From positions 16,944,637-17,008,636 of the forward strand of contig CM026425.1 of the NCBI GenBank assembly GCA_014871385.1: a stretch of 64,000 bases of DNA, given 5' to 3'. The translations under genes were made by a program, and so were the position numbers. A model generated the notes under the pieces. It was not told where the DNA came from. It did not search any database and was given only the letters and a program-made list of their open reading frames with translations. Shown one piece after another: positions 19,200 to 51,161 of this stretch. Origin of the DNA: Ceratodon purpureus (lineage: Eukaryota > Streptophyta > Bryopsida > Pseudoditrichales > Ditrichaceae). Position 1 is the stretch's first letter. Every line of letters starts with the position of its first letter.

Positions 19200-20166
19200 C
19201 TTCAAGTCTTGTAGATGGCTTTAGAAGCCGCTTCAAATACTAACACCTTACCATATTCAATACTTGGAGATCCTCTTTGAAAGTTCTTCTAGAGACTCAC
19301 ACCTACTCAAATCCAACACGGTGAAGCACTTAAAGATGCCCATGTCCTCCGGAGGCCGCTTCAAAGACTTGCATCCTTCCATTGATATATGAGACCTTCC
19401 AAGGTGCTGATGCTCTTTGGAAGTTCTTCTAGGGTCTCACACCCCAACAAATCCAACTCTGTGAGGCACTTCAAGTTGCCAATGTCCTCCGGAAGCTGCT
19501 TCAAGGACTTGCAACCTCTCATTCTCAACACTTTGAGACCTTCCAAGTTGCTGATGCTCTTTGGAAGTTCTTCTAGGGACTCACACCCCCACAAATCCAA
19601 CTCTGTGAGGCACTTCAAGTTGCCGATGTCCTCCGGAAGCTGCTTCAAGGACTTGCAACCTCTCATTTGCAACTCTTTGAGACCTTCCAAGTTGCTGATG
19701 CTCTTTGGAAGTTCTTCTAGGGACTCACACCCCCACAAATCCAACTCTGTGAGGCACTTCAAGTTGCCGATGTCCTCCGGAAGCTGCTTTAAGGACTTGC
19801 ACCCTCCCATTTGCAACTCTTTGAGACCTTCCAAGGTGCTGATGCTCTTTGGAAGTTCTTCTAGGGTCTCCCACCCCCGCAAATCCAACTCTGTGAAGCA
19901 CTTCAAGTTGCCGATGTCCTCCGGAAGCCGCTTCAAGGACTTGCATCCTACCATTCTCAACACTTTGAGACCTTCCAAGGTGCTGATGCTCTTTGGAAGT
20001 TCTTCTAGGGACTCACACCCCCACAAATCCAACTCCATGAGGCACTTCAAGTTGCCGATGTCCTCCGGAAGCCGCTTCAAGGACTTGCATCCTACCATTT
20101 TCAACACTTTGAGACCTTCCAAGTTGCTGATGCTCTTTGGAAGTTCTTCTAGGGACTCACACCCCC
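19200..20166 (-). pseudogene. NLR leucine-rich-repeat fragment 3 (distal part of the split array)
   Basis: An open frame runs from 20166 to 19361 on the minus strand. It encodes about ten alternating 24-residue repeats of the forms LKCLTELDLWGCESLEELPK and GCKSLKRLPEDIGN. From about 19370 the repeats decay, with in-frame stops down to ~19200. No NB-ARC or start region is attached. The sequence continues in frame from fragment 2 (20904-21125) if the element at 20167-20903 is ignored, so it is the former C-terminal half of the NLR at 21806-24265. Because it lies beyond the transposon-supplied stop, it is probably not translated as part of that protein. Confidence 0.8.
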
Positions 20167-20903
20167 GAGGGGAAGCACAATAAAGTGGACCACAAAAGTG
20201 CTTAGCTCATTGCCAATTTCCGCCATTGTTGTAAACACTAAGAAAAGTGCCATATAAGTTTTTGATATGTTGAAAGCAGGATGGAATATAGAAAATAGAC
20301 TCGGTCATCTTGAGTCCTGGAAATTTGCATAAGAAGGTAAGGTGTTTACGATGCCCTACGAGTACCTCAAAGTGCGACAAAGTGAATGTAGTCATTTGAA
20401 GAAGTGGCTAGAAAAGAGTGCAAACTTTGTCAGAAAACACTTTCAAGCGGATGGTGCCCTCCGTTTATGAATTGTGGTCGTGGAAATAAGCACCACCCAC
20501 TTCGTTCGGAAGTTTGGACGGACGAGAAGTATATCTGGGATGTTTTTTAGGAGGGTCACTTCGGCGGTACTTTTTGTGAGTTTTTCTTCACCGAACGTCG
20601 TTTTTTAAATTGGAAAAAACATCCTCTAAAGACAATAGAGGGCACCAAATGAAGAAATCAAGACTTCGGAAAAGTTCATTTTCATGATTTAGAACTAGTG
20701 GTCAAATTTAGTTTCAATTGAGGATGTTCTATTTATGAAGATGCGTGTAAGATACCTTATGACACCCTAGAAAGTGACTGAAATGCTCAAAAACTTCACC
20801 AAAATGCTCAAAATCAGCTTTGAGCTTTAAAAAACAGCACACTTCATATTCACTTCTTAGTGATCACATATTGCACTTTGTGGTCCACTTTATTGTGCTC
20901 TTT
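20167..20903. mobile_element. inverted-repeat (TIR) element in the LRR array, copy 1
   Basis: Inverted ends read AGCACAATAAAGTGGACCAC with slightly diverged tips. The host string CACCCCC is present on both sides (20160-20166 and 20904-20910), a possible short target duplication within a C-rich site. There is no transposase ORF. It is related to copy 2 at 21126-21863: the half nearer the right end is very similar (a shared block around TTTAAATTGGAAAAAACATC), the left half more diverged. The superfamily is undetermined. Confidence 0.8.
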
Positions 20904-21125: not shown

Positions 21126-21863
21126 GGGGGGAAGCACAATAAAGTGGACCACAAAAGTGCTTAGCTCATTGCCAATTTCAGCATGTTGTGTAAACACGCT
21201 AGAAAGTGGCATCTAAAACTTCTTGATGGGAAATTAAGTTTAGAATACGGAAAGTAGACTTGATGTACTACAACTTCCGAAATTTGCGTTTGTAGTTGTT
21301 GAGTTGAGACACCTCTATGAACACGACAAAGTTGAACAAAGTGAATGCAGTCATTTGGAAAAGTGACCGTATTACATTGTAGTTTTGACAGAAATCACTT
21401 TTGACTTTGTGGGGCCCTTCGTTTGTACATTACGCTTGTAGAAATGATCCGGGTGGCCGTGTTTGCAATCCTAGATTGGCGAAAAGTATCCCCGGGACGT
21501 TTTTAAAACACTGTTTACGGTGAAACTTTTTGTGAGGTTTTTTTCATCAAAAATTGTTTTTTAAATTGGAAAAAACATCCTCTAAAGACAATAGAGGGCC
21601 CCAAATGAAGAAATCAAGACTTTGGAAAAGTTCATTTTCATGATTTAGAACTAAGGGTCAAATAAAGTTTCAATTGAAGATGTTTTTTTCATTGAGATGT
21701 GTGTAAGATACCTTATGACACCTTAGAAAGTGACTAAAATGCTCAAAAACTACACCAAAATGCTCAAAATCAGCTTTGAAATATAAAAAACAGCACACTT
21801 CATATTCACTTCCTAGTGATCACATATTGCACTTGGTGGTCCACTTTATTGTGCTTCCTCCCT
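21126..21863. mobile_element. inverted-repeat (TIR) element in the LRR array, copy 2
   Basis: Ends GGGGGGAAGCACAATAAAG and AGGGAGGAAGCACAATAAAG are inverted, and CCT of the host occurs on both sides. The element has no transposase ORF. Its right end supplies the last ~19 codons and the stop of the NLR ORF at 21806-24265. Confidence 0.85.
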
Positions 21864-24265
21864 CCTACCATTCTCAACACTTTGAGACCTTCCAAGTTGC
21901 TGATGCTCTTTGGAAGTTCTTCTAGGGTCTCACACCCCAACAAATCCAACTCTGTGAGGCACTTCAAGTTGCCAATGTCCTCCGGAAGCTGCTTCAAGGA
22001 CTTGCATCCTACCATTGTCAACACTTTGAGACCTTCCAAGTTGCTGATGCTCTTTGGAAGTTCTTCTAGGGACTTACACCCCCACAAATCCAACTCCGTG
22101 AGGCACTTCAAGTTGCCGATGTCCTCCGGAAGCTGCTTTAAGGACTTGCACCCTCCCATTTGCAACTCTTTGAGACCTTCCAAGGTGCTGATGCTCTTTG
22201 GAAGTTCTTCTAGGGTCTCACACCCCCGCAAATCCAACTCTGTGAGGCACTTCAAGTTGCCGATGTCCTCCGGAAGTCGCTTCAAGGACTTGCATCCTAC
22301 CATTTTCAACACTTTGAGACCTTCCAAGTTGCTGATGCTCTTTGGAAGTTCTTCTAGGGACTCACACCCCCGCAAATCCAACTCTGTGAGGTTCTTCAAG
22401 TTGCCGATGTCCTCCGGAAGCCGCTTCAAGAACATACATTCTGAGAGGTTCAAGTGTCGAAGATATTGTAACTTGCCAATGTTCTCCAATTTTGCTTGCG
22501 AAGGTAGAGCTCTTGAAAGGTCTAAGAGTTTTATACTTGAGTTGTTTATGAAAAAATCTAGCGGCATTTTTTCCTCTAAATTTGTGATCTGCTGAAGTAT
22601 ACACACTTTAAGCTGAGAAATGTGGAGGTCCTCCGGCCATTGGAAAATTTTGCAATCAACAAAAGCCAATCTCTTGAGATATTTTAGCAATTCCTTGTTT
22701 GGAAATGATGCCAATCCTTTCCCTGATTGAAAGAAACATTCATGTGCACATTCTCCAGGTTTGGACTTGCTAATGATGTAGATTGCAAGATCTCGAAGAA
22801 TGTCATGTACCTTGGCATAGTCAGCTCTTCCGTCCCAGTCGATCAAAGACCGCTTTGTTAGTATTTCCAAATGTGCCCTTGCTTTGTTCTGAGCTTCTTT
22901 GCCATCAAGGTTGGGGCCAAATAGTTCTTCTCCAACCCATATATTGAATAGTTCGTCCACTGGAATCTCGTAGTCTTCAGGGAAGGCCGCGAAGTACAAG
23001 AAGCAGATCTTTGTTACATCAGTCTTCAATTCGTTATAACTCAATTGGAGACGTCCAAACAATTCAGTATCCACAGTTGAATCCAAAATTGGTATAGCTT
23101 GTTTCAAATCAGACAGAGCAGACTCCCATTCTTCCACAATCACTTTGTCCATCATTGCACTGCCAATAACTTTCAAGGCTAAAGGAAGGCCTTGACATTC
23201 CTCACATACAGCTCTCGCTAAATTTTCCGGAATTGTTGATACAGAACCTGCATTGTCAAATGCAAAGGAACTGAACAATTTCCAACTATCCGCTTCTGAA
23301 AGCTTTAACACCACTTCCACTTCTGCATGCGCTTTGAGAAGAACTGATTTACTTCGGCTTGTTATCAATGTTGCAGATCCAGGGGCTTTTGCAATATCCA
23401 GCCAATACATTATTTCATGATGATCACATACCGTATCCCATACATCGTCCAAAATCAAGAAAATCTTCTTCTCAGCAAATGCGTTCTTGAGAAGGGTGCG
23501 TTGCTCTTCTTGGTTCTTGATGGATTTCAGTCTTTCTGAAACACCGCTGCCCAGTATGCAACTGTTTCCCATCCTTTCGTAAAGATCACCTACTTTTGCA
23601 TCATTACCCACGGTGACCCAGATGACTGAATCCTTCCCATACTGCTCTTTGATATTGGGATCATTATTCAACATCTGGGCAAGCATAGTTTTCCCCGCTC
23701 CACCTCTCCCCAGCAATCCAAAGCAGCTTGCTTCAATGTCCTTTTTGGAACTTTGCAGTATAGACGTCTGAAGTTTGTTGAAATGCTCATCCACTCCTAT
23801 AATCAGTGATGGAGTATCTTGTTTTGCAAAACTGAAAGATGGCGTAAGGTGTGGGGATTTCATCGATAGAAGAATGCCAAGTGTAACAAAATCTGTGTTC
23901 GCTCTTGCCTCCTCAATGTGACGAGTGACTTTTAATACACGTGACGGTAATTTTTTCCAACGCCAAAATTTCAACGCCCTCTTTGCCTTGCCACGAACAG
24001 TTTCCTGTGCACATTCCTTGGTGACAGCTTCTGCACCTTCCAAAAGTCCTTTAAAGTGTGTCAACCACTTCCTGCAGGCTTCATTTCCCTTCTGTTCATT
24101 TTTCTCTACTTCTACAATAAGTGGCATAATATTCTCCAATTTCGCCGCTAGCTCATTGCACTCGTCTTTACAGTTGTAAGCCATTTTAGCTGCCTTGATC
24201 ACTTCAGTAAGAAGTGTAGACACAGCAAATCCTACTATAGCAGGAGTAAACAAAGGATCTGCCAT
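21806..24265 (-). CDS. RPW8/CC-type NB-ARC-LRR immune receptor (NLR)
   Basis: An 819-residue single-exon protein of the intracellular plant immune-receptor family, which binds ATP/ADP through NB-ARC and signals on pathogen recognition. Residues ~1-130 form a helical RPW8/CC-like domain (VSTLLTEVIKAAKMAYNCKD). NB-ARC follows: P-loop GRGGAGKT 186-193, kinase-2 IFLILDDVWD 268-277, RNBS-B TLITSRS about 299-305, QGLPLAL 358-364, RNBS-D CFLYFAAFPED 421-431, and an MHD-like VHD at about 486-488. About eight LRRs of 24 residues start near residue 600 as LPEDIGN/LPKSISN pairs. All ATPase motifs are present. The last ~19 residues (HNKVDHQVQYVITRK region) are encoded by the inverted end of the TIR element at 21126-21863, so the LRR domain is truncated compared with the original gene. 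The start ATG is followed by a typical MADP. Whether the short form is functional is unknown. Confidence 0.9.
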   Translation of the reverse strand: MADPLFTPAIVGFAVSTLLTEVIKAAKMAYNCKDECNELAAKLENIMPLIVEVEKNEQKGNEACRKWLTHFKGLLEGAEAVTKECAQETVRGKAKRALKFWRWKKLPSRVLKVTRHIEEARANTDFVTLGILLSMKSPHLTPSFSFAKQDTPSLIIGVDEHFNKLQTSILQSSKKDIEASCFGLLGRGGAGKTMLAQMLNNDPNIKEQYGKDSVIWVTVGNDAKVGDLYERMGNSCILGSGVSERLKSIKNQEEQRTLLKNAFAEKKIFLILDDVWDTVCDHHEIMYWLDIAKAPGSATLITSRSKSVLLKAHAEVEVVLKLSEADSWKLFSSFAFDNAGSVSTIPENLARAVCEECQGLPLALKVIGSAMMDKVIVEEWESALSDLKQAIPILDSTVDTELFGRLQLSYNELKTDVTKICFLYFAAFPEDYEIPVDELFNIWVGEELFGPNLDGKEAQNKARAHLEILTKRSLIDWDGRADYAKVHDILRDLAIYIISKSKPGECAHECFFQSGKGLASFPNKELLKYLKRLAFVDCKIFQWPEDLHISQLKVCILQQITNLEEKMPLDFFINNSSIKLLDLSRALPSQAKLENIGKLQYLRHLNLSECMFLKRLPEDIGNLKNLTELDLRGCESLEELPKSISNLEGLKVLKMVGCKSLKRLPEDIGNLKCLTELDLRGCETLEELPKSISTLEGLKELQMGGCKSLKQLPEDIGNLKCLTELDLWGCKSLEELPKSISNLEGLKVLTMVGCKSLKQLPEDIGNLKCLTELDLLGCETLEELPKSISNLEGLKVLRMVGGRKHNKVDHQVQYVITRK

Positions 24266-26600
24266 AACGAGGTATTACACACCTGCCCAAGAGTGCGATT
24301 CATCATTTTAGCCAGAAAAAAAATGTACGATAAGAGAGTACACGTCAAGCCTTCAAATGCAGTCCGAAGCAACAGAGGTGGCAACCAACTATTGTTTGGT
24401 AAGTATCCAGAAAGCATACAGAAATAAAAATCCTCTCAACAGAAAGTACCTGATTGAAATATGTAATGTCTTGGAATTCAGAATAGCTTACAGTCGTGAC
24501 ATAACAAATTATGTTCTATAATAATCCACCTCCAATATCAAGAAATTTTCTGTAGACTGCTACAAAATCACCTGTGTAATATCAATCACTAGTCATATTG
24601 CTGCAATGGGCTTGAATGGAAACATCAGCAACTAAGTCCGCGAACTCAAAGCAACCTTGCATAGCAGTAAACAAGGGGCGCATGAGGAATCTCAAGCCAT
24701 TTTGACATGTTCAACATGATTACTATTCTCAACACAAAATTTCGTGACACAAGATTCAGGCACATGACTTCATGAACAATTGGTTGGTACCTGCACTTGA
24801 ACCACTGAATTCGCAAAATAAACGGGGTATCAAGAATTAACACTTTGTTGCAAGCAGCGAAAGTGAGCCGATGCCCACCCCAATGACAAGCTGTGGTCCA
24901 CGTCCTTGTATAATTGAAGATGGTTCACTGCAAATCCAAGACAAAATTAACAAGTCTCCAACAGTACCTCCGATAGAATTACCTGTCCGAACAGCAGCAT
25001 TATGTCTCACAAACAAAAAGTTTTGAACCTACCCTCTACGATCCGATCTCGGAGGTAGGTAGTACAAAACATGTCCCTCCGAGATCGGTCTCCACAGAGC
25101 AGCACGACAGAAGCTCCCCTTCCCACTCTCTAGAGCCAAGTTCTACAGCTAGTCAGGTATCTGTGTTCGTCTGGGGCATAATGACACTGATATTTGTGAG
25201 GACCACGCTACGATGATAACAGAGACAAAACAAAAGCATGGGGTACTAGAGCCTGGAAAACAAGACAGTAATTAAAACATGGTCGACATCCCACACGTCA
25301 CCAGGTGCTTATCTTCTAAGCCACAACTCAACACTGACATGCGGCCAGGATTTGACACACAACTAGCGATCTCCAACCACTAAACGACGTGATAAGCACC
25401 CATTAAACAATCCAATATAACCGGCATCCTCGGTTCGGTCACGAACACCCCAACGGTACTGATATCGCAAAGAAGGGACTTGACAAGCTGACCAAAACGT
25501 AAAATGTCAAAGCATCCAAAACTTTACAAGAAGCATGAGGTAACGCAAGTGAGGAACATGTTGCGTACAATCAGAGCCGGGGGAGTAGAACGTCGCTCAA
25601 ACCTCCCTCTGGCACAAACACTATTGGATTCTCTCACGAGCAGCAGCACGCAGAACTGTCTCCGGGGAAAATCACCTCACCCTCACGGCACTCAGCAGAA
25701 AGCACACAGACGTGCAGCTTGTTACCGGCATCCACACCTCTTACATTCCTGAACACCTCTACACGGACCTCAAATGGAGCACTCGGCACTGACGACGACG
25801 ACTACGATGTCCGAAGTCACAGTCTTCCAAAGCCAGGGCAGGACCACGACAGAATAAAGATCAGCCTGGTCCAGATGAAAGCAAACCGACGGTACTCCTA
25901 TCACGGACTGTTCTGTCCACAATCATCTGGTTTCTGCATCGTCGATGGTGTCCCATGCAGACACCGTGTTCCAAGTTACTGTAGATCCCAGCCTCCCTGT
26001 GACGTAGAAGCCACCGCTAGTAATCTATCAAATTAACAGAACTAAGGAGATGCTTCGATCGATGTCCATCAACTCTTCCAGAGGCGGTGATTTTGGAGCT
26101 CTGGATTGCAGTGTCTGCAGGAACAAGGTGGTAGATATTCGATTCGGACTTTGGTATGTGGCGATCGAAAGGAGGGAAAGGAGGACCCAAAAGTCATGCT
26201 TAAACGCGTAATTGACCCATTTGACAGCATGCACTTGTCATTATTGGAGTGAGGAATCTGAACAGGTCAATTGAGGAATCGTAGATACTTGAGTAGTTGT
26301 AGGATTGAATAATTGCAAGCAGCATCTTCGAGGCTGTCGATGATTTGCTGATGGCGCTCCACGCCACCCAAATTCTGCAGTCCAGCTCAATGTTAATCGT
26401 TAAATACAGAGCCGGGGTATCTATAGCAGCTTCAGGGGCCCATTTTGTGAGTGGAGCATCACCTCACCAACTCCAAAGTAAACCAGTCTATTTCTGAACA
26501 GTCTCAAGTCTAAGAAAATAATGAGAATATAATAGAGTGTGCAGACAATAATGTACACCTTAGGTACATGAAAGTCTATGTTTGGAAGTCGGCGTAGGTA
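24266..26600. other. NLR upstream region without recognised genes
   Basis: It would contain the NLR promoter and any 5' UTR. The ORFs here (for example 25504-26036 plus) are basic, low-complexity and unrecognised. CCGATCTCGGAGGTAG and CTCCGAGATCGGTC, about 40 bp apart near 25047, form a short inverted repeat. Confidence 0.45.
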
Positions 26601-36490: not shown

Positions 36491-37147
36491 CATTAAATTG
36501 TTTAATGGTTTAAATATATTGTACATGTATTTTAATTGATTTCAATTAAAGCAAATTTTGGGTTTTATAGCCCCTATTTTATCATCCAAATTATATAAAC
36601 TCAAAATTATCAAAATCAAAGAATTAGGATACAAAAAACCATTTATATAAAATCATTTATCAATAAATAATCACTTGATCCAATCAACGAATCAAATTAG
36701 TTTTTTAACCATAAATTACAAACATAATAAATAAATTTCTAAAGGTCAATTTGGAAATATTTAATAATAAAGTTTGTCATAAAATCAAATAATAAAATTA
36801 TTCAATGCACAAAATTTTTAAAATTAAATAAAAAGATAAGTGAATCCCAAGGATCCATGGCTTCACCGTGGCAATGTCAAAGTTTCGTCACTGTCACTGT
36901 TTTTTATCCCTTACAACTTTGATGATGGACCACCCATGTGGTCTACAATGCAGGAGAATCAGCCTAAATATGCCCTCACCCATCCTAAACGATCCACTCC
37001 AAAAACACTACCTCCACTTCTAGTAAAAAAAAAAAAAAAGTTGGACAACACGAAGACTATTGTGAACATCCTCTGATCCAACTTATAGCGGCTGCAGCAT
37101 CTCAAAGAACTCCGACAGCAGAGAGTACTACACTCAGCGTTTATGTT
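36491..37147. other. AT-rich DNA upstream of the retroelement
   Basis: No reverse transcriptase or other domain visible. A 15-base A tract lies near 37026. Confidence 0.5.
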
Positions 37148-38437
37148 TTGTTTTTCTCAGGCTCCGAAGAAATAGAGCGCATCAAATATCAAGATTGTGT
37201 GAGATCCCCTATCACTAGAACATTGTTTTTACTCAAACATGAAGCCGGAGTCCACCTTAAAAGCACTATAGGAAATTTTCTATTAAATCCATCCCCACTC
37301 GAAACCGCATGGATGCAAGAAGCACAACAACTACATGGCCTAAATCCCAAAACTTCTCTCAAACTACTACAAAAACTACTATTACATAATATAATAAACT
37401 TAGAACAAATAACCATGCCTAACGGGACCACCCTAATGAACCCAGAAGAATATAAAATATACCACTCCAACCCCACAAAACTCATAAAAAGTGCGCTAAA
37501 TATTGCCAGTCAATTATTTTGTAAACCCACTTGCCATCAAAGATGCCAAATACCATGTAGATTCCGATTCCACTCCCCCCCAAGAACCCTAAAAAATGAT
37601 TACATATTATTAAACCACAACATTCTACCACAACAATTGAACCCCCCAATACACCCCCCCAACCCTCCTATTCCCGAACTTCCTCCTCCTCCCAACAATA
37701 TGCTTAAATATCCAAGACAATTCCCCATACACACAATATTAAACCACAAACAAAATAAAATCAAAGATCCAAATGGGATAAACTATAAAGATACAACATA
37801 TTTATGCCAATGGACCACGCCAAATAATAATACATACAACAAATGGCGTAGCCAAAGAGAACTTTTCCCGTGGAGCGACATTAACACCTGCCTCCACAAT
37901 ACTGAATTACTTACACAATACTACACTAAACAACAACATAAACATTTTTCAAACATCATCGAAAAGCACTTCTCCATAGAACAACAAAAAGATACAAGAT
38001 ACGTTACTCCGGCCACAATTATCCCATTGGCACATGTCTCCATTAATGAATGCAACCCAGAAAATGACATCGAAACAAAATCAAACATTATCCAAACACA
38101 ACATGACGTTGCACACATATACGAAGATAATGGCCGACACCTCATCACCATTCCGAAAACTAGACTACTATGGCTATGGAAACAATATCAACATGCAAAA
38201 AACACTCCACATGGCCTTGAGCCATCCACCCAATCATTTGAAACTGAAATTGTCTGGCTATATCAAAGATATAAATACCGTATCCCAAAAAATGATCCAC
38301 TTAAATGTGCTCAATACACAATACCAACTGAAATACTAGATTTTCTAATATCAACATTCAACATCCACCAATCTTACTTTTCATCACCAGTTACATGCCC
38401 TACACAATTTACCCAATTTTACTCACCATTCTCATGA
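37148..38437 (+). CDS. retroelement ORF, post-RT region with chromodomain-like segment
   Basis: A 429-residue ORF with no sure start (the first codon is TTG and the copy is 5'-truncated). Residues ~15-125 resemble a helical post-reverse-transcriptase region (LETAWMQEAQQLHGL, NLEQITMPNGTTLM). A Cys cluster C-x3-C-x3-C-x3-C follows at about 127-139, then a Pro-rich linker. Residues ~192-250 (FPIHTILNHK, TTYLCQWTTPNN, KWRSQRELFPW) have the hydrophobic and aromatic pattern of a chromodomain, which in retroelements can read chromatin marks at the target. The last ~30 residues (SSPVTCP) begin the methyltransferase-like segment described next. All of these except the retroelement context are tentative. 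Confidence 0.55.
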   Translation: MFFSGSEEIERIKYQDCVRSPITRTLFLLKHEAGVHLKSTIGNFLLNPSPLETAWMQEAQQLHGLNPKTSLKLLQKLLLHNIINLEQITMPNGTTLMNPEEYKIYHSNPTKLIKSALNIASQLFCKPTCHQRCQIPCRFRFHSPPRTLKNDYILLNHNILPQQLNPPIHPPNPPIPELPPPPNNMLKYPRQFPIHTILNHKQNKIKDPNGINYKDTTYLCQWTTPNNNTYNKWRSQRELFPWSDINTCLHNTELLTQYYTKQQHKHFSNIIEKHFSIEQQKDTRYVTPATIIPLAHVSINECNPENDIETKSNIIQTQHDVAHIYEDNGRHLITIPKTRLLWLWKQYQHAKNTPHGLEPSTQSFETEIVWLYQRYKYRIPKNDPLKCAQYTIPTEILDFLISTFNIHQSYFSSPVTCPTQFTQFYSPFS

Positions 38438-38770
38438 GATATAATATTTGGCTCCCTAGGGAAAGCATTTGATCACAAATGGAAAGGAATTGGCTATGCT
38501 CACCCCCACAATGAAACCGACATACAACAAGCCATTCATTGGGCCCGCCTTGCGGCAAAAAATGACCCAAACAATATCACCATATTCATCTCTCCCGATA
38601 CTAACTGGTACCAAAACTCCAACCCCTACACTGGTCCATTCCCAAACACACATATTATTGCCCATTTTGCTGCAGACACCATTACATATGACGAGCCAAC
38701 AATTCCCCCCGAACTTAAACTCGAAAGAAAAGAACTTTCTACGCTCCGAATATTCTGTATCCATCACTAA
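38345..38770 (+). pseudogene. phage-Dam-like N6-adenine methyltransferase-like segment of the retroelement (degraded)
   Basis: The pattern SSPVTCP, FYSPF, KWKGIGYAHPH, AIHWARLAAKNDP, TIFISPDTNWY and GPFPNTHIIAHF follows the order of a phage-type DNA N6-adenine methyltransferase fold: a motif, then G-x-G-Y-x-x-P-x where active enzymes have NPPY/DPPW, then a helix and a strand ending in an aromatic. The catalytic NPPY position reads AHPH, so even an intact copy might lack activity. Interrupted here. The identification comes from pattern only and could be wrong; a non-enzymatic relative is possible. Confidence 0.35.
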
Positions 38771-39046
38771 AACAACAACATCGGTACACACGAGCAAATA
38801 CATCAACTCATTCAAACAATTAACAATCTCCAAATATTACAAACTCACACACAAATTGCATCTCCGACCCCCTTAAACACGCATGTCAATCCCAGTAAAA
38901 AATGGTCCAAATCATATTATCCAAACACCCCCGCAAATAACTCAACACCTATCCCACAAATACCAAATTACCAAACAAATCTACCACTAAAATTCCACCC
39001 CCAATTCAGTTATTACACAGATGGATCATTCAAACCCCCAAAAGAA

Positions 39047-40468
39047 ATGGGCAACGGTAAATGGAGAAGAGAAAAAGCCGGATACGGTATTTACAGCCCC
39101 AAAGGCCTCAATATCCCCAAAAGACTCCATGGACACCAAAATATACTCCGTGCCGAAATGATGGCAGTACACAAAACACTCAGAATTATTAACACACAAT
39201 TCCCCAACGAACCAGCATACATATTTACCGACTGTCTAAATGTACTATACTTACTTAATACACAAATAAAACACCCCACACTACATAATAGTCACCCCGA
39301 TCAAACCACACTTGCCTCCATAGTAGAACTACTCCAACAAAGAACACAACCAATTTCACTATACAAAGTTAGAGCACACATCAACATTGACGGTAACGAA
39401 GAGGCAGATTATTTAGCAAAGCAAGGTCTAAAACTAGCACACAGAAAAGCCCTACACTCGTACGAACATGCCCATGCCACTCCGTTCTACTTCCAAAAAG
39501 ATAACTGGCCTTCAAGAAACGATGTTCCAGACAAAGGACCAGTTAGAACTCTAGAAAAACAAATCAAAAAATATGACAGAGAAAACAATCTAGAAAACAT
39601 GGCCATACAAACCCCCAACATTTGCAAATGGACGGAAAATGTAGACATAGACAATGTACTTTCTAATGAATTTTGGGAAAATCCAGTCATTACTGACAAG
39701 CAAAAATCATGCCTCATAAAATTCCGTACGGGAACTTACATGGGCCAAGCTAGAAAACAAATGTTCTTCGGAAGAGAAAGATTTCCATCCATCACATGTC
39801 CCATTTGCAAATCACGTGAACCGGATACATGGCTACATGTATTACTCACATGCCAACAACATATACACTCCCTCCGAGTCAAAAGACACAACAAAGCAGT
39901 ATGGGAAATTAGAAAACTACTAGTCTCATCCGAAAAATCTCGTTGTTTTATTCTAATGAATGCGGGCACCTTCAATGATAAACCCCCAGAAAATACCGTT
40001 CCCAATTGGTTACTTCCATGCACATGTGGCACTCAAAGATGTCATTGTAACTCTAGATTTAGACCAGACATTCTCTGCGTTAAAGGTTTGCCGTACCAAA
40101 GCGATCCCCCTACAGAAATAAACCCCAATCTTACCATAAAATTCATTGAATTCACATACTGCAATGACAAATTCTCCCCAGAAACATTTTTAGCTAAAAC
40201 CAACAAATACAACCCACTAATTGCCAGTCTTACCGCTAGAGGATGGAAAGTCGACCCCCTCATTGTCATCACAGCAGGCGCTAGAGCTACCACACACATT
40301 CCTTCAATGAAACTACTTGCAGACAATTTCAAAATACCATGGCTTACCATCAAAAACACCTTTAAAAACATAAACACTATTGCCATACAATATGCCATGT
40401 CTATACTTCTCCACAAAAGAAGAATAGAAAACCACCAACCATTACCCGAGACATTAGACCCCCCATAG
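39047..40468 (+). CDS. retroelement ORF: RNase H, CCHC and restriction-like endonuclease
   Basis: A 473-residue ORF. The RNase H begins just upstream of the first Met (YYTDGS at about 39013-39030). Its acidic residues are all present: TDGS, RAEMMAV, FTDCLNV and DGNEEAD (about residue 118-124). At about residues 248-266, C-x2-C-x9-H-x4-C (CPICK ... WLHVLLTC) is the CCHC motif that precedes the nuclease in R2-like LINEs, followed by RHNKAVWEI. The endonuclease core is RPDILCV, then after ~19 residues IKFIEFTYC, the R-P-D ... E arrangement of PD-(D/E)xK enzymes that nick the target for target-primed reverse transcription. RNase H would remove template RNA. A CxC cluster (CTCGTQRCHC) lies between. 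The ORF is complete to its stop. Confidence 0.8.
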   Translation: MGNGKWRREKAGYGIYSPKGLNIPKRLHGHQNILRAEMMAVHKTLRIINTQFPNEPAYIFTDCLNVLYLLNTQIKHPTLHNSHPDQTTLASIVELLQQRTQPISLYKVRAHINIDGNEEADYLAKQGLKLAHRKALHSYEHAHATPFYFQKDNWPSRNDVPDKGPVRTLEKQIKKYDRENNLENMAIQTPNICKWTENVDIDNVLSNEFWENPVITDKQKSCLIKFRTGTYMGQARKQMFFGRERFPSITCPICKSREPDTWLHVLLTCQQHIHSLRVKRHNKAVWEIRKLLVSSEKSRCFILMNAGTFNDKPPENTVPNWLLPCTCGTQRCHCNSRFRPDILCVKGLPYQSDPPTEINPNLTIKFIEFTYCNDKFSPETFLAKTNKYNPLIASLTARGWKVDPLIVITAGARATTHIPSMKLLADNFKIPWLTIKNTFKNINTIAIQYAMSILLHKRRIENHQPLPETLDPP

Positions 40469-40535
40469 TCAAAGAAAACCCCTAAATATAATAAAAAAAA
40501 TTTTAGTAGCTAGAGCTACTTTATTTGAATTGATA

Positions 40536-40767
40536 GCATACGGGTGTCAAGTCTCTTGTCAACTTCTCACAGAGGGGGCTGTTGGTTGGCACAACTCTCT
40601 ACTGCCTGCAATTGCTCACTCAGCAGTACCAAGCCACTTCATCCCCCACATCCACTCAAACGAGTCCATCAGGGTTCGAACCCGGACCAGATTAATGAGA
40701 CAAACGCTCACCTCCAACCAACAAATGAGCTTGTGGCTTGGTGTCCAAAAGTGAAATCAAATGAATC
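40536..40767 (-). mobile_element. tRNA-type SINE with target duplication
   Basis: On the minus strand the head contains an A-box region (TTGGTTGGAGGTGAGCG), then TCTCATTAATCTGGTCCGG and the B box GGTTCGAACCC. The body continues with GATGGACTCG and ends near GACTTGACACCCGTATGC. The 11-bp string TTGAATTGATA occurs exactly at both borders (40525-40535 and 40768-40778), a target-site duplication typical of LINE-assisted retroposition. The tRNA-like part has a CAT in the anticodon-like position. Confidence 0.85.
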
Positions 40768-40829
40768 TTGAATTGATAATCACTGCTATTACTGGCTACT
40801 TGTTACTAGTTACTGGTTACTGGCTACTT

Positions 40830-40985
40830 TGTGACTAAAGTGTCTACTCTCGAAAGGGGGGAGTAGATCTTTACTTCCATACCTTTGTCCTGTGGGCATT
40901 GGCTTGGGGGTGGATCGAACAGACACTTAATTCACTTCGGTCTCCTCCGGAGACCGTAGTTTCTCTCTCTCTCTCTTTTGTTTTT
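40830..40985 (+). mobile_element. SINE tail, copy E
   Basis: It contains CGAAAGGGGGGAGTAGATC, CCTTTGTCCTGTGGGCATTG, GATCGAACAGACACTTAATT and GGAGACCGTAGTTTC, and ends in a CT microsatellite. This is the same 3' module as copies A-D. It is preceded by short TTACTGGCTAC tandem repeats. Confidence 0.65.
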
Positions 40986-41524
40986 CTCAAGGTGGTGCGA
41001 CAGGCACCTAGGAATGAAGCCAAGTAAGAAAAGTATATACAAATTTATCCATTTGAACGTACTCATCCATAAAATTATCTATAACAAGACACTTCCATCC
41101 AAATACTGGCGAATTTGGTTAATTTTGTAGAAGATTTTGGCAATTTCATCCAATATTTTGCTCAAATTTTCCAGTGTATCAGTAGCGAGCACGCGGATCA
41201 GGTAAAATTCAGGCGATTTTTCACCTGCAAATTAAACGCTACCTACACTTGTTGAGTGTGCTAATGCGGGAACGTTTGGATGCTTCTCATTCCATGCTAA
41301 CATCTGTGCTTGTGTTAGGGTTGCGAAGGCCATCTCAACTTTGCCCACTTTGCATGAGGGCCAGCTCAGCCATTGCCCAAGAATACTAGTGTCCAAGTCT
41401 TTATGATCTCAAATTACAACACCAAAAATCGTAACTGCATTTCAATATCAATTCAGTGTAATACTGAAACCCCTCTGCAATGAGACTCCCCTAGATAAGC
41501 ATGCGGCAGGCTCATATGCGACAC
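40986..41524. other. intergenic DNA
   Basis: No gene recognised. Confidence 0.5.
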
Positions 41525-42386: not shown

Positions 42387-42500
42387 CTGGCGATCTCTCC
42401 CTACCACCACACCTTTTTTCTCGAAGATGAAGAGGGTAATTCATTTCTATAGGGATTTCTCGAAGAAAAAACTGAAGCTAGAAGGGAAGAAGAAACCAAA

Positions 42501-44924
42501 TTGAGAACCCAAATGGCCGAGGCTCAAAGTCAGTTGCACAGTCACCCTTGTTCCTTCCCATTACAACTCGAAGTAGCAACCATTCGAGAGAAGCTGGCAG
42601 CTTTGGAACAACATCAGTCCAATGGTCAACGTCTCAGATCGAGAATCAAATGGCGATGGAAAGGTGACGCCTGTAACAAAGAGTTTTTCCAAATGGTAAG
42701 AGAAAAACCAAGGAAGCAACCCATTGCTCAACTACGGGCCCCAGACGGTTCACTTAAATCATCAGATCAAGAATTAGAGGAGATTTGCAGGAGCTTTTAC
42801 AGCGAACTGTATGCAGCACCAATGGATCCAGCACCGGGGTTAATTGACAGAGCCCTTGCCAGTGTGACCACAATTGCAACCAAAGAAATGAGAGACCGCC
42901 TGGGGAGGGACTTCACAGTAGAAGAGCTCCAGAAGGCCGCTGAAGCGTTAGCCACTGATCGTGCCCCCGGCGCGGATGGAATCAGTATAGTTTTTTATAC
43001 ACACCATTGGGATCTCATCGGCCCAGAATTCCTGGAAATGGTCAATCTCTCTCTCCGTCGAGGCTGCCTCCCCTCCCGTGTCACACATGGCGCCATAACT
43101 CTTATTCATAAATCTGGCCCCTTGGTTGATCTGGGTAATTGGAGACCAATTACCCTTTTCAACGCTGCATACAAAATCATAGCTAAGGCACTGCAGCTTC
43201 GCTTGAAACCTCTGATGGCGGAATTAATCAGTCCCGACCAGACCGCATTTGTGCCACACAGGTATATTCTAGACAATGTCTTTGTGGCTCACGAAACGAT
43301 AGACATAGCCAGGCGCTCTAAGCAGCCACTTCTCTTTCTGAAAGTAGATTTTAAAAAAACCTTCGATAAAGTTAGTTGGCCCTTTCTGTTTGCCTGCATG
43401 GAGAAGATGGGTTTGGGTGAAGGATTCATAAAATACACCAAGCTTCTGTTCCAAGGTGCAACGGCTTCGGTGCTGCTGAATCGACAACAGACCTCTCCCT
43501 TCAAGATTGAGAGAGGTGTTCGGCAGGGGTGCCCTCTGGCACCCCTCCTCTTCCTCATAGCTGCTGAAGTACTCAACGCGATGCTGAGAAAAGCGGAAGA
43601 AGCTGGTCAGATTTCAGGGATTAAACTCCCTAATTCGACACAAACGCAGCTAATCTCACAATTCGCAGATGATACGTCCATTTCGCTGGAAATCAGCCAA
43701 CCTCACGCGATTGCTAATCTGCTGGACATCCTCAACCTCTACAAGTCAGCATCCGGGCTTGAGATAAACTGGTCAAAAAGTCACGCGTATTGGTGCTCCA
43801 CAGGAAGAAAACCGGCTTGGCTGAGAAACATTGGCTGGCAATGGGCCGAAGAATCAGACCTCTCAAAACTTCTAGGAACACCCTTTGGCCTTGATCTGGA
43901 GACGGAAAGCATTGATAACTTCCTGATTGACCGTATAAAGTCCAAGCTAGCTTATTGGTGCTCAACAAAACTCTCTCTAGCAGGTCGGGCAATGATTGTA
44001 AAACATGTTTTTCTCTCTTCTTTATGGTATTTCCTTGCAATTTGGAGTCGATCTGTTAAGGCTACGAGCAAAATTAAAGCTCTGCTTCGAAATTTCCTTT
44101 GGTCGGGTCAGGAACATAATGCAAGAACCAGAGTCAACTGGTCGGATTGTTGTGCACGCAAGCATGTTGGTGGCCTAAACTTGATAGATCCACAGGAAGG
44201 GACTGTAAGTCTTCTATGCAAGTGGGCCATTACAGCATACTTGCCAGGTTCCTCAAACTTACAGGTTATTTTGCGACATAAACTTTGGAATTCAAGCCCG
44301 GACAGGAACACCAAATGGCCTCCGAACGCACAGTGGGGACTAGTATGGAACCATTCCCCAACCCCAGGCTCCAAGGTATGGAGCAAAGTCCTAGCAGCGT
44401 GGAAGAAAATGATTCGTCACCTACATGAAGCTCTCCCCTCCAACAGAGCCGAAGCCAAGCAAGCTCCATTATGGTGGTCATTCAGATTTTTGGGTGGAAG
44501 TTGTGATACTTCCATTCGAAACGCTCTTTCCCTTTATCAACGAGGTCTCCGCACGATTAATGATATATGGGACTGCAACCGAAACTCACTCAAGACGGTG
44601 CAGCAAGTGGACAACGATGTTGGTCTTAACCAGGATGAGCTCCCTAAAGTAGAAGCCCTCATAGCACAGGTTCAGCAGAAGTATGGAGCCGTCCTAACCA
44701 GGGAACATAACTCCCCTCATGTGGGCGAATGGGTAGGCGGGTTTATGGGTGATATCCACCAGCTCCCTGTGTTTGTGATTCAAGTAGGCAGAGCCTGGCA
44801 ACCTGGCGAAATAGACAGCCCTGATGGCCTTCGAACCTTGCCCCCAAAATACCCAGTCCACTCCATTGGATCACAATCCAGATCCCTCATTCCTGACCAT
44901 GCAAACCGACTCCTAAACGTGTGA
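42501..44924 (+). CDS. LINE reverse transcriptase
   Basis: An 807-residue open frame (first codon TTG, open upstream to about 42453). It begins with a coiled linker, then KWRWKGDACNKEFF at about 50-63. The fingers/palm motifs of a non-LTR RT follow: GADGISIVFY, then NWRPITLFN, PDQTAFV, LFLKVDFKKTFDKVSW, RQGCPLAPLLF and the catalytic box QFADDTSI. The thumb region (GLEINWSKS, KLLGTPFG) is also present. It would copy element RNA at a nicked target. The motifs are well preserved, so the copy is fairly young despite its frame breaks. Confidence 0.9.
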   Translation: MRTQMAEAQSQLHSHPCSFPLQLEVATIREKLAALEQHQSNGQRLRSRIKWRWKGDACNKEFFQMVREKPRKQPIAQLRAPDGSLKSSDQELEEICRSFYSELYAAPMDPAPGLIDRALASVTTIATKEMRDRLGRDFTVEELQKAAEALATDRAPGADGISIVFYTHHWDLIGPEFLEMVNLSLRRGCLPSRVTHGAITLIHKSGPLVDLGNWRPITLFNAAYKIIAKALQLRLKPLMAELISPDQTAFVPHRYILDNVFVAHETIDIARRSKQPLLFLKVDFKKTFDKVSWPFLFACMEKMGLGEGFIKYTKLLFQGATASVLLNRQQTSPFKIERGVRQGCPLAPLLFLIAAEVLNAMLRKAEEAGQISGIKLPNSTQTQLISQFADDTSISLEISQPHAIANLLDILNLYKSASGLEINWSKSHAYWCSTGRKPAWLRNIGWQWAEESDLSKLLGTPFGLDLETESIDNFLIDRIKSKLAYWCSTKLSLAGRAMIVKHVFLSSLWYFLAIWSRSVKATSKIKALLRNFLWSGQEHNARTRVNWSDCCARKHVGGLNLIDPQEGTVSLLCKWAITAYLPGSSNLQVILRHKLWNSSPDRNTKWPPNAQWGLVWNHSPTPGSKVWSKVLAAWKKMIRHLHEALPSNRAEAKQAPLWWSFRFLGGSCDTSIRNALSLYQRGLRTINDIWDCNRNSLKTVQQVDNDVGLNQDELPKVEALIAQVQQKYGAVLTREHNSPHVGEWVGGFMGDIHQLPVFVIQVGRAWQPGEIDSPDGLRTLPPKYPVHSIGSQSRSLIPDHANRLLNV

Positions 44925-44976
44925 CATCAGGCTTGTTTGTGTAACAGAGACAAGTAGAACCCCAAAAGGAAACTCC

Positions 44977-45804
44977 ATGGTCTACTATGGAGCAGTCGGA
45001 CACCTTCCAGATTTTGACCTAGTGCTTTGGAAATGGAGAATTAATCAGCCCCTCATGATGTATAGTGCAAAAGTGGGAAAGGAGATACTCAATGAACGGA
45101 CGCAGCTGAAAACTCCGATTGCTGTTAAGTGGAGACAAGAATACACCCTCAATTTTCAACTGGACTGGAAGAAACTATGGAAGAGCAGATCACAGAAAGA
45201 AGCAGCATTTCTCTGGTCACTGTGGCATCAAGCAATCGCAACAAACTCATGGCGAAGTAAGTACAACCCCCAAGCTGATTCTTGCTGTCCTCTTTGTGTA
45301 ACCCCCTGTCAGGAAAATTATTCTCACAGGTTTTACCATTGCCCACAGGCCAAACGTGTCTGGGCTGTAGCATTTTTAATTGTGCATTGGTTGTGCAGAG
45401 GGACAAGGAACTTAGGTCCTCCTAAGAACTTCCCTCTAGATCAATGTCTTTTCGGTAGAAGAATCAGGATCCGCATGATGGGAGTAGCCCGAGTCTGGGA
45501 CCTCCTCCGAGGCATTGCAGCATGGGGATGCTGGATTTCAAGGAACGAAGTTGTCTTCCAAGGTGAATTATGGTCAAACGCCCGCATCAGAAGATACGTC
45601 TGGGACTCCATTCTGGAGTATGGGCGGATCGAATGGAACAAAGCTCTTGCCAAATACAAAAAGGCAAAGACCCCTGAAAAAGCCCACAACATACTCATGG
45701 GCTTTGATGCGACTTGGTGCACTAGAAACGTTCTCTATATTAGGACTGGTTTATCTGTAGCTTGGCAACCGTTTCCCTCTGCTAACCCTATCATTCTGTG
45801 GTAA
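44977..45804 (+). CDS. LINE zf-RVT (C-terminal zinc-binding) region
   Basis: A 275-residue ORF. Residues ~50-130 match the zf-RVT pattern of plant L1 elements: WKKLWKSRSQKEAAFLWSLW, then CCPLCVTPCQENYSHRFYHC, then AKRVWAV. It lies in a different frame from the reverse transcriptase, so it is now separated from it by a frameshift. It ends about 70 bp before the A-rich 3' end of the LINE. Confidence 0.8.
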   Translation: MVYYGAVGHLPDFDLVLWKWRINQPLMMYSAKVGKEILNERTQLKTPIAVKWRQEYTLNFQLDWKKLWKSRSQKEAAFLWSLWHQAIATNSWRSKYNPQADSCCPLCVTPCQENYSHRFYHCPQAKRVWAVAFLIVHWLCRGTRNLGPPKNFPLDQCLFGRRIRIRMMGVARVWDLLRGIAAWGCWISRNEVVFQGELWSNARIRRYVWDSILEYGRIEWNKALAKYKKAKTPEKAHNILMGFDATWCTRNVLYIRTGLSVAWQPFPSANPIILW

Positions 45805-47254: not shown

Positions 47255-50200
47255 TCATGAATTACTTGTCTGAAGATCAAAGAATTCCGCAATTTGCTTC
47301 ATCTTCGGCCGTGATTCAGGGTTGACTGCAATGCACGCCAACGCTACCTGTGGTGCAATCGGAGATTAACCCGAGTCATTAATTGCAGATAGTGACCACA
47401 TGTACACTACATCACAGAATATTTGTTCAAATCCATGGAAATATTTGTTCAAATCCGTGCAAATATTTGTGCATATATAAGAGGACAAGGGTTGCAAGAG
47501 TTAGCAATTTCTTTACCTGCAAGCTTTCAATCATTCTGCTCTGTTGATTGTTGGCAGTTTTCAGCAGGAATGGATCGAACATCTCAGAGAGAGCACGCTT
47601 CTCCAGAAGAGCCATGCGCATCCACGACACAAGGTCGAGATCTCCACCGGCAAGCTGTTTGAAGGGGGACCTGCCTGTGAGAAGCTCAAGCAACACCACG
47701 CCGAACGAGTATACGTCGCTCTTCTGAGTGAATCTCTTCGCATTTGTTGCCTCTGGAGCTTGGTACACTCCCACCAAAAATGGTGCCACCATTTGTGCAG
47801 CCCCTTTGGGACTTTCTGATCTCCTTCCAAATTCTGCAAATCATTCCAGTGCAAGCAGATTTAAACATCAGCCTTGCACTCCAGCTCAAGAAGAGGCGAA
47901 GTTAGCGTCACGGTGATATATATCTCATGCAGGAGAATCTGAGGAGCTATGAATCAGGCTTGAGGGGAAGATGCTAACCAGGAAGAGCAACCGCAGCTGC
48001 AGCTGCAGTTGGAGATAATCTAGTACCACTGTCACCTCTCGTGCTTCCAAACTCCGTGACAGGTGCTGGTTGTGCTAACGCAAGCAACCTCTGCAGCCCA
48101 AAATCAGCAATTCGAGGTTCCAAAAACGCATCTAGTAGAATGTTGCCGGGTTTGATGTCGCCATGGATGTACTGTTTTCGAGGGTTACACTCATGTATGT
48201 GTGCGAGACCTTGGGCTACTCCTCGCATAATCCGGATTCGCACCTCCCATGACAGAGGCCCCTTCAATCCCTCTGACCGGCCACCTGCAAACACCAGCTC
48301 AAATCACTCAACAAACTAATTCTTCATCGATTCCAAACGCAATAAACGCACTAATATGGTGAGTACCACAAACCCGAGCTTACCGTGAAGAGCAGTTTCC
48401 AAGCTGCCATTGGAAAGGTAATCATAAATTAACAGCTTCTCATCAACCGTCCAGGAATATGAATGCAGGCAGACTATGTTTGGATGGCGCACTTGCGCGA
48501 TAGCCTTCACTTCGGCCTCGAACTCTTTGTGTCTCTGCTCCCCTCCTGCCACCCCTAACCTTCGAACAGCCACAACGGTGCCTTCATCCAACACCGCCTT
48601 GTACACAATCCCCACTCCGCTCTTGCTCAAAACATACGCAGAAGCTCGCAGCAATTCCTCCAATGTGAAGGACAACACTCCCGTTAGGTGCACCAAGTCC
48701 CCTTCGTCGTCCTCCTCCTCGCCTGACTTTGCCTCACTTGCAGACTCTCTCCATGAGCACAGAAAGCCTCGAAGGCCATTGTCAGACCTTGACAAGGTCA
48801 ATGTCTTCTTAGCCATGGCCAGCTTGCGCACGAAGAAGCAAAAGACGAGAATAGCCATGAGTAGCCCCAGAACTCCACAACCAACCGCAATGCCAATAAC
48901 AGCACCCTTGCTCAAGCGTTTCTTGCTCGAAGAGTGGGCTTCTGCTGCAGTAGAGCTGTTGGCCGAGCTGGGAGATGGTGAAGGCGCGCAATCAGTCTTC
49001 AAAGGCGCACCACAGAGCGCGGCGTTGCCCAGAAATGCTGTCTCCCCTAAAGACTGGAAGTATGAGTCAGGCGGAATAGGACCTGAAAGATTGTTGTTCC
49101 GCAAGTCAATGAACACGTCCCGGAGGTTGGCCAGAGATTGAGGGATTGAGCCTGACAAGTGATTGTTCGAAAGATTGAGAGTTCCCTGCAAGACGCAGAA
49201 CAAAAAAAGTTCGGTGATCAACTCTCGACAAGTGCACGATACGTCGATCGAGTTGACCTCCCTAGAATCATGAAATGTAAAACAACCATCTCTCGATTGT
49301 TGGCAAATCTCAAATCTCTCAGCAAACCAATGTATCCAGGAGTTGGTCTCTAGGACATATACATAGGCGTTTCCCGGAATTTTGCATCAAAACGTGGAAC
49401 TGAATTGACCAAATCTGAATCTCTATCCTTCTAAGTTTCTCTGCCCACACCACCATCTCTCTCCTACCATCTCGACAGTACTTTGATCAGTGTATTAGTT
49501 CACATTCACTTCCTAGGTCTAATGTCATTGGCAATCTGATGCCGATTCCTGCAAGAAGGATCAGGCACCTAGTTGCAATTTCGCTCAACTAGCCCTGCAT
49601 GGAAGGCTTGAGGGCAACATACTAGACCGGTGCCCATGTTCTCGACTAATCGTCCATTTAAGACGCGGCACCGACTGTCTCGCAATCCTCCCGCACAAGA
49701 TAGCTCGACTTATCTAAGCCATTTCACTTCCGACGAATTTCGCTTCTATTCCGGGGAGATTGCACCACAACAAGGATTCTGGAGTGATGACACATTTTGT
49801 TACTTCTTTTTTAAGCACAAAGTTTCATTGCAGGAGAGAGAAAGCAGGCCAAGGCCCTAAACTTTGTGACCGAGCGCAAGTGTAGCTTCAGTGGCATGGT
49901 GTCTCAACTAATATTAGCCCACAACTCAAGGTGGGAACTTCGCAACTGCGAATGCCACTCGAATCGTACCCATTATTCATGTCGCAGTACTTTATGCATC
50001 GCCACTTTACCCTGAACCTTCTTGTCCTTTTGTTCATATGGAGTATATCTCGTGGCGACGTGACCTAGAATTTTTCTCCAGATGGGAACCGACAGCAAAC
50101 CGTCATGTTCTGAACCTCTTCTCCCAAATTCATGCCCTTGATTGCTTGCTAACATAACTGTAAGTTGCCAAAGCGTGGAGCGCCGTTGTGATGAGCAATC

Positions 50201-51161
50201 TCGATGCTTACCTAACTTCCCCGACTCTAATCTGTTTTCTGATGAGCTTTGAAACGTGGACTTTGGTTGTTGAGGATGCGTACCTTCACCGACGTGAGGT
50301 TGCCGAAGTCATCAGGGATGGGGCCGCTGAAGCGATTCATAGACAAGTCCAGCCGTTGCAGCTCCGTCAGATTCGAACCCAAACCGATCGGTAAGACGCT
50401 TGTGATGTTGTTCTTGCTGAGAAGTAGTCTTTTAAGTCTGTAACAGTAGCGAATGTCCTCCGGCAGGCCAGTCAATTCATTGCCACTCAAGTCCAGCACT
50501 TGCAGGTATTGCCCCACGTTGCGAATCGCCGCTGGGATGTCTCCCGACAAAGCGTTGTTGGAGAGATCCAGCAGGGTTAAGTGGAGGCGGGCGTGGAAAA
50601 GCTCTTTCGGAATCTGCCCAGTTAGCCTGTTGGTTCCCAAATTCATTGAAATAAGATATTCAAGGTCGCCGAGACGGGGCGATATCGTTCCTCCGAGCGC
50701 ATTTCTGGAAACAATCAACGTCGCGGTCATGTTGTCGTCAAGACATTTTCGAGAATTTTTCACTCTTGCAAACCGAGACAATCTGAGGTGAACTAGATTG
50801 GTTATTGAATTTTACAATGCAGAAATTGTAGAGACCCTTACCTGGAGAGATTGATTTCCACCACCTGCTCCTCTGAAACGCCTTGAATTGTTTTGCAGAT
50901 GATGCCATTCCAATTGCAGGGAGTAGCGTCGGCGGTATTCCAGCTCTGCAAGTATTTGTCAGGATCCGAAGTGATGCCATTCTTAAAATCCAGGAGGGCG
51001 TTTCCGTCCGCGTTCAATCCTTTGGCGCTAAAAGGCGCTTCAGCTGCTAGAATTACGATGAACAAAACCAAGGTGAGCTTCCCGAGCACCGTGAATCCAC
51101 CTGAAAATTCTTCCATGAAGTGCAATCCTAACACGCCATTTCTTCTCTCTAGGGCACTCAT
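47255..51161 (-). CDS. LRR receptor-like kinase, LRR-III family, ZAR1-like
   Basis: Six exons with GT-AG borders: 50842-51161, 50284-50704, 48384-49185, 47979-48284, 47517-47833 and 47255-47347; 2259 nt, 752 residues. The order is signal peptide (hydrophobic about 28-46), LRRNT (ALLDFK ... PCNWNGIIC), LRRs to about 300, AALCGAPL, a TM helix at about 342-367, and a kinase from about 420 ([18 protein letters not shown]) with [14 protein letters not shown] and YQAPEA. It is a plasma-membrane receptor close to Arabidopsis ZAR1, which regulates the asymmetric zygote division. The ATP-binding Lys is Arg in VAVRRL, HRD is HGD, and the first glycine of the loop is Ser, so catalysis may be weak or absent. 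The replaced Lys and HGD also occur in ZAR1. A second in-frame Met at residue 16 places the signal peptide better. The fifth exon ends SLQ and the sixth encodes [18 protein letters not shown]. Confidence 0.92.

Follow-up and report, generated by a model that had tools for sequence, protein, structure and literature searches.

A PCIF1/CAPAM-like methyltransferase domain with an altered active site in a probable Dualen/RandI-type retrotransposon of the moss Ceratodon purpureus

We analysed a 64,000-nucleotide stretch of the Ceratodon purpureus genome (contig CM026425.1 of assembly GCA_014871385.1, positions 16,944,637 to 17,008,636; hereafter the window, whose own numbering is used throughout). 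It holds what is very probably a dead, 5'-truncated copy of an abundant non-long-terminal-repeat (non-LTR) retrotransposon of the Dualen/RandI type, in which a PCIF1/CAPAM-like domain with a replaced active-site residue stands upstream of RNase H. The best overall explanation, to which we give a probability of roughly 0.6, is a Dualen/RandI-type long interspersed nuclear element (LINE) using this catalytically altered domain as an RNA- or cap-binding module.

Results

The middle domain is homologous to PCIF1/CAPAM

The middle domain of the window copy (38132-38746, plus strand, limits approximate) is cut by an in-frame stop and matches the Pfam family PF12237 with an E-value of 9.3e-11 on the read-through frame (match at 38216-38542) and of 2e-5 for the part before the stop. 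The frames of three representative copies (L031, L062 and L063) scored 41.6, 48.9 and 48.1 bits at a cut-off of 31.1. Genome searches covered the 362.5-Mb assembly, in which all 150 scored places for this profile (277 candidates) lay above the cut-off; the same search gave matches in none of 14 control genomes. Using a profile built from 20 rows chosen among 13 long copies and 20 snippets (19 loci, as L042 lies inside L062), we found two PCIF1 sequences alone among the solved structures of the PDB at E ≤ 10 (5.5e-5 and 6.1e-4). A Foldseek search with an AlphaFold model of the domain gave six matches at E ≤ 0.001, all of them PCIF1 (4.9e-9 to 2.2e-7). Pfam, PDB profile and Foldseek thus agree on a methyltransferase fold, that of PCIF1.

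The Pfam family is named PCIF1_WW, but the match is to the methyltransferase part of the protein, as follows from the PDB profile matches and the limits of the human crystal fragment; this covers residues 165-668 and includes the methyltransferase, whereas the WW domain occupies residues 40-86 (PMC7948815). No WW domain family was among the Pfam matches of the three full frames at E ≤ 1. The SPL.C and D..FGS.G blocks, aligned to PCIF1, are kept in the element. Homology of the domain to PCIF1/CAPAM, the cap-adjacent m6Am RNA methyltransferase, is in our view practically certain. PCIF1 is reported only from eukaryotes, as far as the consulted part of one source goes (PMC8868631). For a host PCIF1 gene with an intact motif, a pattern search gave a single match with an in-frame stop inside, and none was identified, though introns may interrupt such a gene.

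An initial annotation, made from the letters of the window, had placed a phage Dam-like DNA adenine methyltransferase between reverse transcriptase (RT) and RNase H. The methyltransferase fold and a degenerate motif IV are borne out by these data, the Dam identity is not, the family being PF12237 and not PF05869; and because the family is that of the PCIF1/CAPAM RNA-cap enzymes, modification of DNA is not the natural reading.

The catalytic asparagine is replaced by histidine

At the position of motif IV (38495-38512) the window copy has Tyr-Ala-His-Pro-His-Asn compared with Glu-Ala-Asn-Pro-Pro-Phe in PCIF1, and the PDB alignment likewise places Y-A-H-P-P of the element over E-A-N-P-P-F. Of 58 distinct loci read here, 56 have histidine in place of the catalytic asparagine; in the remaining two, L007 and L027, no such motif was found, L027 being truncated beyond motif IV. 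The residues that follow vary (YAHPHN in 38 loci, YAHPPN in 8, others in 10), with YAHPNN among the variants replacing NPPF; the PP pair is retained in some families and the Phe of NPPF is lost. A back-translated W.G.GYAH pattern occurs at 215 places in the genome (backward control, 0) and its Asn/Asp counterpart at 3, one of which (C2:18871821) falls inside a listed element copy, while the remaining two have no adjoining PF12237 among the 150 places listed. The Asn-to-His replacement thus seems to predate the families sampled here.

With His in place of the catalytic Asn and without the Phe of NPPF, the domain is unlikely to methylate by the usual route. An active adenosine methyltransferase with an unusual motif (HPPN or HPHN), whose target would be the first transcribed adenosine of the element's capped RNA, would fit the retained SPL.C and D..FGS.G blocks, the purifying selection described below and the PP pair kept in some families. 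We nevertheless consider it improbable, given the histidine in 56 of 58 loci, the 215 versus 3 pattern places and the loss of the aromatic residue from a motif, NPPF, that is named as key for PCIF1 activity in the portion of the literature source used here (PMC11345611).

The domain is maintained by selection

We estimated dN/dS by the Nei-Gojobori method between family A (L031) and family B (L033) and obtained 0.08 for the PCIF1-like domain, 0.08 for RNase H, 0.06 for the APE-type endonuclease, 0.06 for the region of the zinc finger and the restriction-like endonuclease (RLE) and 0.03 for the RT palm, with 0.11 for a small module downstream of RT and 0.39 for the N-terminal region. These ratios are rough because dS is about 1; the contrast of pN and pS is nevertheless clear (0.075 versus 0.563 in the PCIF1-like domain). 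In one close pair of copies the values were 0.11 for the PCIF1-like domain and 0.22 for RNase H. The PCIF1-like domain is under purifying selection, which may be as strong as that on RNase H.

Around the old active site the T-C, FG..G and W..YAH columns are invariant in 20 of 20 rows (19 loci); columns N-terminal of these are not fairly comparable, since several rows do not cover them. Such invariance would be needless for a mere structural spacer between RT and RNase H that binds neither RNA nor S-adenosylmethionine, a role to which the altered active-site residues and the location between catalytic domains would be suited and which we regard as unlikely. Far less credible still is the view that the domain is a neutral passenger, a decaying piece of a host gene picked up by chance. 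Two stops do break the window copy, but the domain is common to families that are ~45% identical within it and, between families A and B, is constrained like RNase H.

Intact copies encode a probable dual-nuclease LINE

Using the 565-amino-acid RNase H-RLE frame against the genome we obtained E = 0 for all 77 scored matches, with 82-100% identity. This number of loci is a lower bound (1,620 candidates). The large contig C6 carries 24 of the 77 places versus its 30% share of the genome, i.e. there is no enrichment. Nine of the 77 scored loci have an open frame of at least 2,700 amino acids, and the intact copies, in the same genome, consist of a single frame of 2.7-3.2 kaa (thousand amino acids) comprising a low-complexity N-terminus, a 2A (StopGo) motif, APE, an R2-like RT, the small module, the methyltransferase-like domain, RNase H, a CCHC finger and an R2-type PD..E nuclease motif, in this order. 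We compared 13 long copies, 11 of families A and B, one of family C (L062) and one of family D (L063). The landmarks 2A, APE, YADD of RT, FG..G of the PCIF1-like domain and RNase H follow one another in this order in all 13 frames, with the PD motif of the RLE downstream of them in each; the landmark expression for the small module was unmatched in two.

Pfam recovered the order APE, RT, PCIF1, RNase H in L031 and L063, and RT with PCIF1 in L062. RVT_1 matched all three representative frames (3.5e-26 to 1e-28; L031 2.3e-26), and among solved structures the RT profile was nearest to R2 (1.3e-30), with an entry named RNA-directed DNA polymerase at 2.1e-15 and LINE-1 ORF2 at 1e-14. The APE family PF14529 (Exo_endo_phos_2) was found at 4.3e-7 in L031 and at 3.6e-6 in L063, the latter with 27.3 bits just below the cut-off of 27.4, and the APE residues N, E, DxN and SDH are present in 13 of 13 long frames. 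RNase H (PF00075) is significant in the window, L031 and L063. Six of six aligned copies, drawn from four families, have the CX2CX9HX4C finger and the R/KPD...IEFT...K..KY nuclease motif in invariant form.

Directly upstream of 55 of the 77 RNase H-RLE loci lies a same-strand PF12237 place, at a start-to-start distance of 552-637 bases on the plus strand and, with the opposite end of the PF12237 match as reference, of 172-278 on the minus strand. The fixed spacing at 55 loci together with the 13 long frames excludes an assembly by separate insertions, as these segments recur in identical order in other copies. The initial annotation had likened the element to Dualen/RandI on account of its RNase H and R2-type nuclease motif, and this is borne out (PF00075 3e-13; invariant RPD...E motif); full-length copies with an RT do exist, and they additionally show the APE nuclease and the 2A motif. 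Viral contigs, considered as a source of relatives, were rejected, as 11 pattern stretches contained 0 relatives by tblastn.

The window copy is a single truncated insertion

In the window a plus-strand reading frame spans 36989-40468, its initial ~170 bases lying outside the element, and is broken by two in-frame stops, TGA at 38435-38437 and TAA at 38768-38770. Compared with the intact copy L031 the window copy is 97.1% identical across 3,820 columns, with homology beginning at 37159. The identical 14-mer TTTTGTTTTTCTCA stands at both junctions (37146-37159 on the left and 40976-40989 on the right, plus strand); in a chance control, at least 14 shared bases occurred in 1 of 4,977 random pairs of window stretches. 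The flanking 14-mers and the limits of homology to L031 thus define one 5'-truncated insertion at 37160-40975 on the plus strand, 3.8 kb including a 0.5-kb 3' untranslated region (UTR). The element delimited initially as 37148-40503 is therefore real, but with corrected boundaries.

The RT palm and the APE-type endonuclease are absent from this copy, whose sequence begins within the region after RT. All its parts lie on the plus strand. A remnant of the region C-terminal to RT (thumb and linker; 37161-37702) is recognised by alignment to the L031 frame downstream of RVT_1, and is followed by the small module (37703-37990, approximate) and the PCIF1-like domain. The RNase H domain (39008-39430) retains D-E-D-D and His, so that the four acidic residues initially noted are indeed in place. 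Further downstream are the CX2CX9HX4C zinc-finger-like motif (39797-39853), the R2-type RLE (40008-40465, start approximate; RPD at 40061-40069, Glu of IEFT at 40148-40150), whose motif is conserved in all aligned families, and the 3' UTR with a terminal variable (TC)n tail (40469-40975).

The small module is not supported as a chromodomain

The module at ~37703-37990 is conserved, with invariant L, C, N, K, W, Q, F, N and L columns in 17 of 17 members, and is predicted by AlphaFold as three strands and a helix (predicted local distance difference test, pLDDT, 68.6). The Chromo profile PF00385 matched two of the 17 members at E ≤ 10, at best with 0.075 (13.4 bits; cut-off 25.1), and was outscored by unrelated Pfam families (0.0087 and 0.015). 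A PDB profile search with the module gave no match, and in Foldseek the best E was 0.28 with no entry named chromodomain among the best 50 of 758. Chromodomain identity, considered as a candidate, is thus unsupported by Pfam in 17 members, by the PDB profile and by AlphaFold with Foldseek; the initial suggestion of a chromodomain-like segment is not confirmed, and since a chromodomain is not established neither is the reading of chromatin by the element.

These data also bear on an element that reads chromatin through a chromodomain and modifies DNA by a phage Dam-like adenine methyltransferase. The chromo-like spacing, the weak Pfam match at 0.075 and the occurrence of Dam-like enzymes in DIRS retrotransposons, described in the consulted section of a survey (PMC5890265), speak in its favour. 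We regard it as very improbable, because PCIF1 is the sole significant fold, no chromodomain fold stood among the best 50 of 758 and no Dam family matched in Pfam at E ≤ 10 (window) or E ≤ 1 (three frames), thresholds at which the HMMER filters drop most matches above 0.1.

2A motif, termini and insertion traces

The 2A motif D(V/I)ExNPGP is found in 12 of the 13 long frames, and the thirteenth, L036, has NPGP but no fit to the motif. Genome-wide the GDIExNPGP pattern occurs at 146 places (control, 0). The region before 2A differs in length among copies; an HPKSKI-like unit of some six residues is repeated at length through residues 60-400 of L033, an array that is not visible in L062 and L063.

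At the 3' end, flanks past the (TC)n tail showed no common target sequence, differing by eye among 41 printed loci of families A and B only, a set that includes three duplicates and two loci on the wrong strand (L011 and L030). In the 3' UTR, families A and D agree at 76% over about 110 columns (window 40581-40689 versus L063), the rest being unmatched, and this window stretch contains GGGTTCGAACCC. The common block is possibly an RNA signal for the RT. RNA families were considered for the 3' UTR and rejected, as two matches far below gathering scores were taken as chance.

Neighbouring genes

A second, different LINE adjoins at 42453-45801 (plus strand), its RVT_1 frame (6e-34) preceding a zf-RVT frame (1.8e-9). 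On the minus strand lie an NB-ARC/leucine-rich repeat (LRR) gene with an RPW8- and Rx_N-like N-terminus (21809-24274), a neighbouring LRR fragment (19364-20206) and LRR and protein-kinase pieces at 48319-50811, which are perhaps one intron-split receptor-like kinase gene.

Discussion

The active-site residue of the PCIF1-like domain is replaced, yet the domain is kept by selection, which suggests that the element uses it to handle RNA. Translation probably splits the polyprotein at 2A, yielding a low-complexity protein from the N-terminus and a large catalytic one, which would comprise APE, the R2-like RT, the beta-alpha module, the PCIF1-like domain, RNase H, the CCHC finger and the R2-type nuclease. 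Insertion probably proceeds by target-primed reverse transcription, which would leave the ~13-14 bp target duplications, the 5' truncations and the (TC)n tail. The PCIF1-like domain may be kept as an RNA-binding module, which most plausibly would hold the element's own RNA at the capped 5' end.

Non-catalytic binding of RNA or cap by the domain is a tentative assignment, at slightly less than even odds. There is precedent in METTL14, a relative of the adenosine methyltransferases that has lost the motif and serves in RNA binding. A more specific proposal is that the former cap-adenosine methyltransferase is a pseudo-enzyme cap reader, which would keep the LINE RNA on the RT by its m7G-capped 5' end and so ensure that the element's own full-length transcript is chosen and the 5' junction completed. 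We regard this as speculative and rather unlikely. An open question for LINEs is how they recognise their own full-length RNA and complete the 5' end; a domain dedicated to binding the cap or the 5' end, if true, would make this question testable.

Several observations weigh against the overall explanation. Binding of RNA or cap is argued from PCIF1 homology only, and the fold match depends on a weak AlphaFold model, with a mean pLDDT of 58.7 and long stretches below 50. In distant pairs dN/dS of the PCIF1-like domain was 0.16, 0.17, 0.28 and in one case undefined, with dS saturated, and in the close pair L034/L036 it was 0.18 compared with 0.00 for RNase H. In L062, Pfam did not reach APE and RNase H at E ≤ 1 although the motif residues are present, and profile searches with the RLE gave no significant match although its motifs are invariant. 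A PF12237 place is lacking beside 22 of the 77 RNase H-RLE loci among the 150 places listed; these loci are no evidence of absence, because that list comprised 150 places and L033, itself among the 22, carries the domain. Target-site duplications were found in two of four copies with a 5' junction in hand (the window copy and L003, none for L027 and L028); the survey comprised 30 copies, 26 of which had no 5' junction in hand, the 5' ends of intact copies lying beyond the fetched stretches.

Retroelements have been found to capture DNA methyltransferases; with an RNA-cap methyltransferase fold in a LINE, retrotransposition would be linked to the modified RNA 5' end. The domain provides a natural, selected version of PCIF1 with an altered active site, and the element is a land-plant LINE that appears to combine two nucleases and has a 2A motif of its own. 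Among the matches listed in our literature search, which covered titles and abstract openings but neither the first description of Dualen nor a 2016 survey of adenine methylases in eukaryotes, we recognised no PCIF1-like domain in a retrotransposon.

Dualen is defined by APE and RLE together, and the moss element resembles Dualen/RandI in combining APE with an R2-type nuclease motif, and in its RNase H and R2-related RT, according to the passages drawn on (PMC4640811, PMC3636483). Relative to that definition, on which the comparison is based, the element has in addition a 2A motif and, after RT and before RNase H, both the beta-alpha module and the PCIF1-like domain. The likeness to PCIF1/CAPAM extends over the methyltransferase part, by profile and by fold; unlike PCIF1/CAPAM, the element's domain has no WW found by Pfam, has NPPF replaced and is encoded within a retrotransposon.

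APE-type non-LTR retrotransposons bearing 2A are likewise on record, through a title cited in a 2026 study (PMC12846837), from which the moss element differs in its R2-like RT, its second nuclease and its land-plant host. In the part of that study used here, 2A is functional in plants, yet there is no evidence for its natural use by plant viruses. The accessible part of a land-plant review names L1 and RTE as plant LINEs (PMC9033089). Captured methyltransferases in retroelements comprise DNA methyltransferases (DNMTs) in LINE, DIRS and Gypsy elements and Dam in DIRS, PCIF1 being unmentioned in the available part of that survey (PMC5890265). As described there, SymbioLINE-Dnmt, KnitGypsy-Dnmt3 and DIRS elements with Dam share with the moss element a captured methyltransferase under purifying selection. 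Their enzymes are DNA cytosine or Dam-like adenine methyltransferases, whereas the domain of the moss element belongs to the RNA-cap family and has an altered active site.

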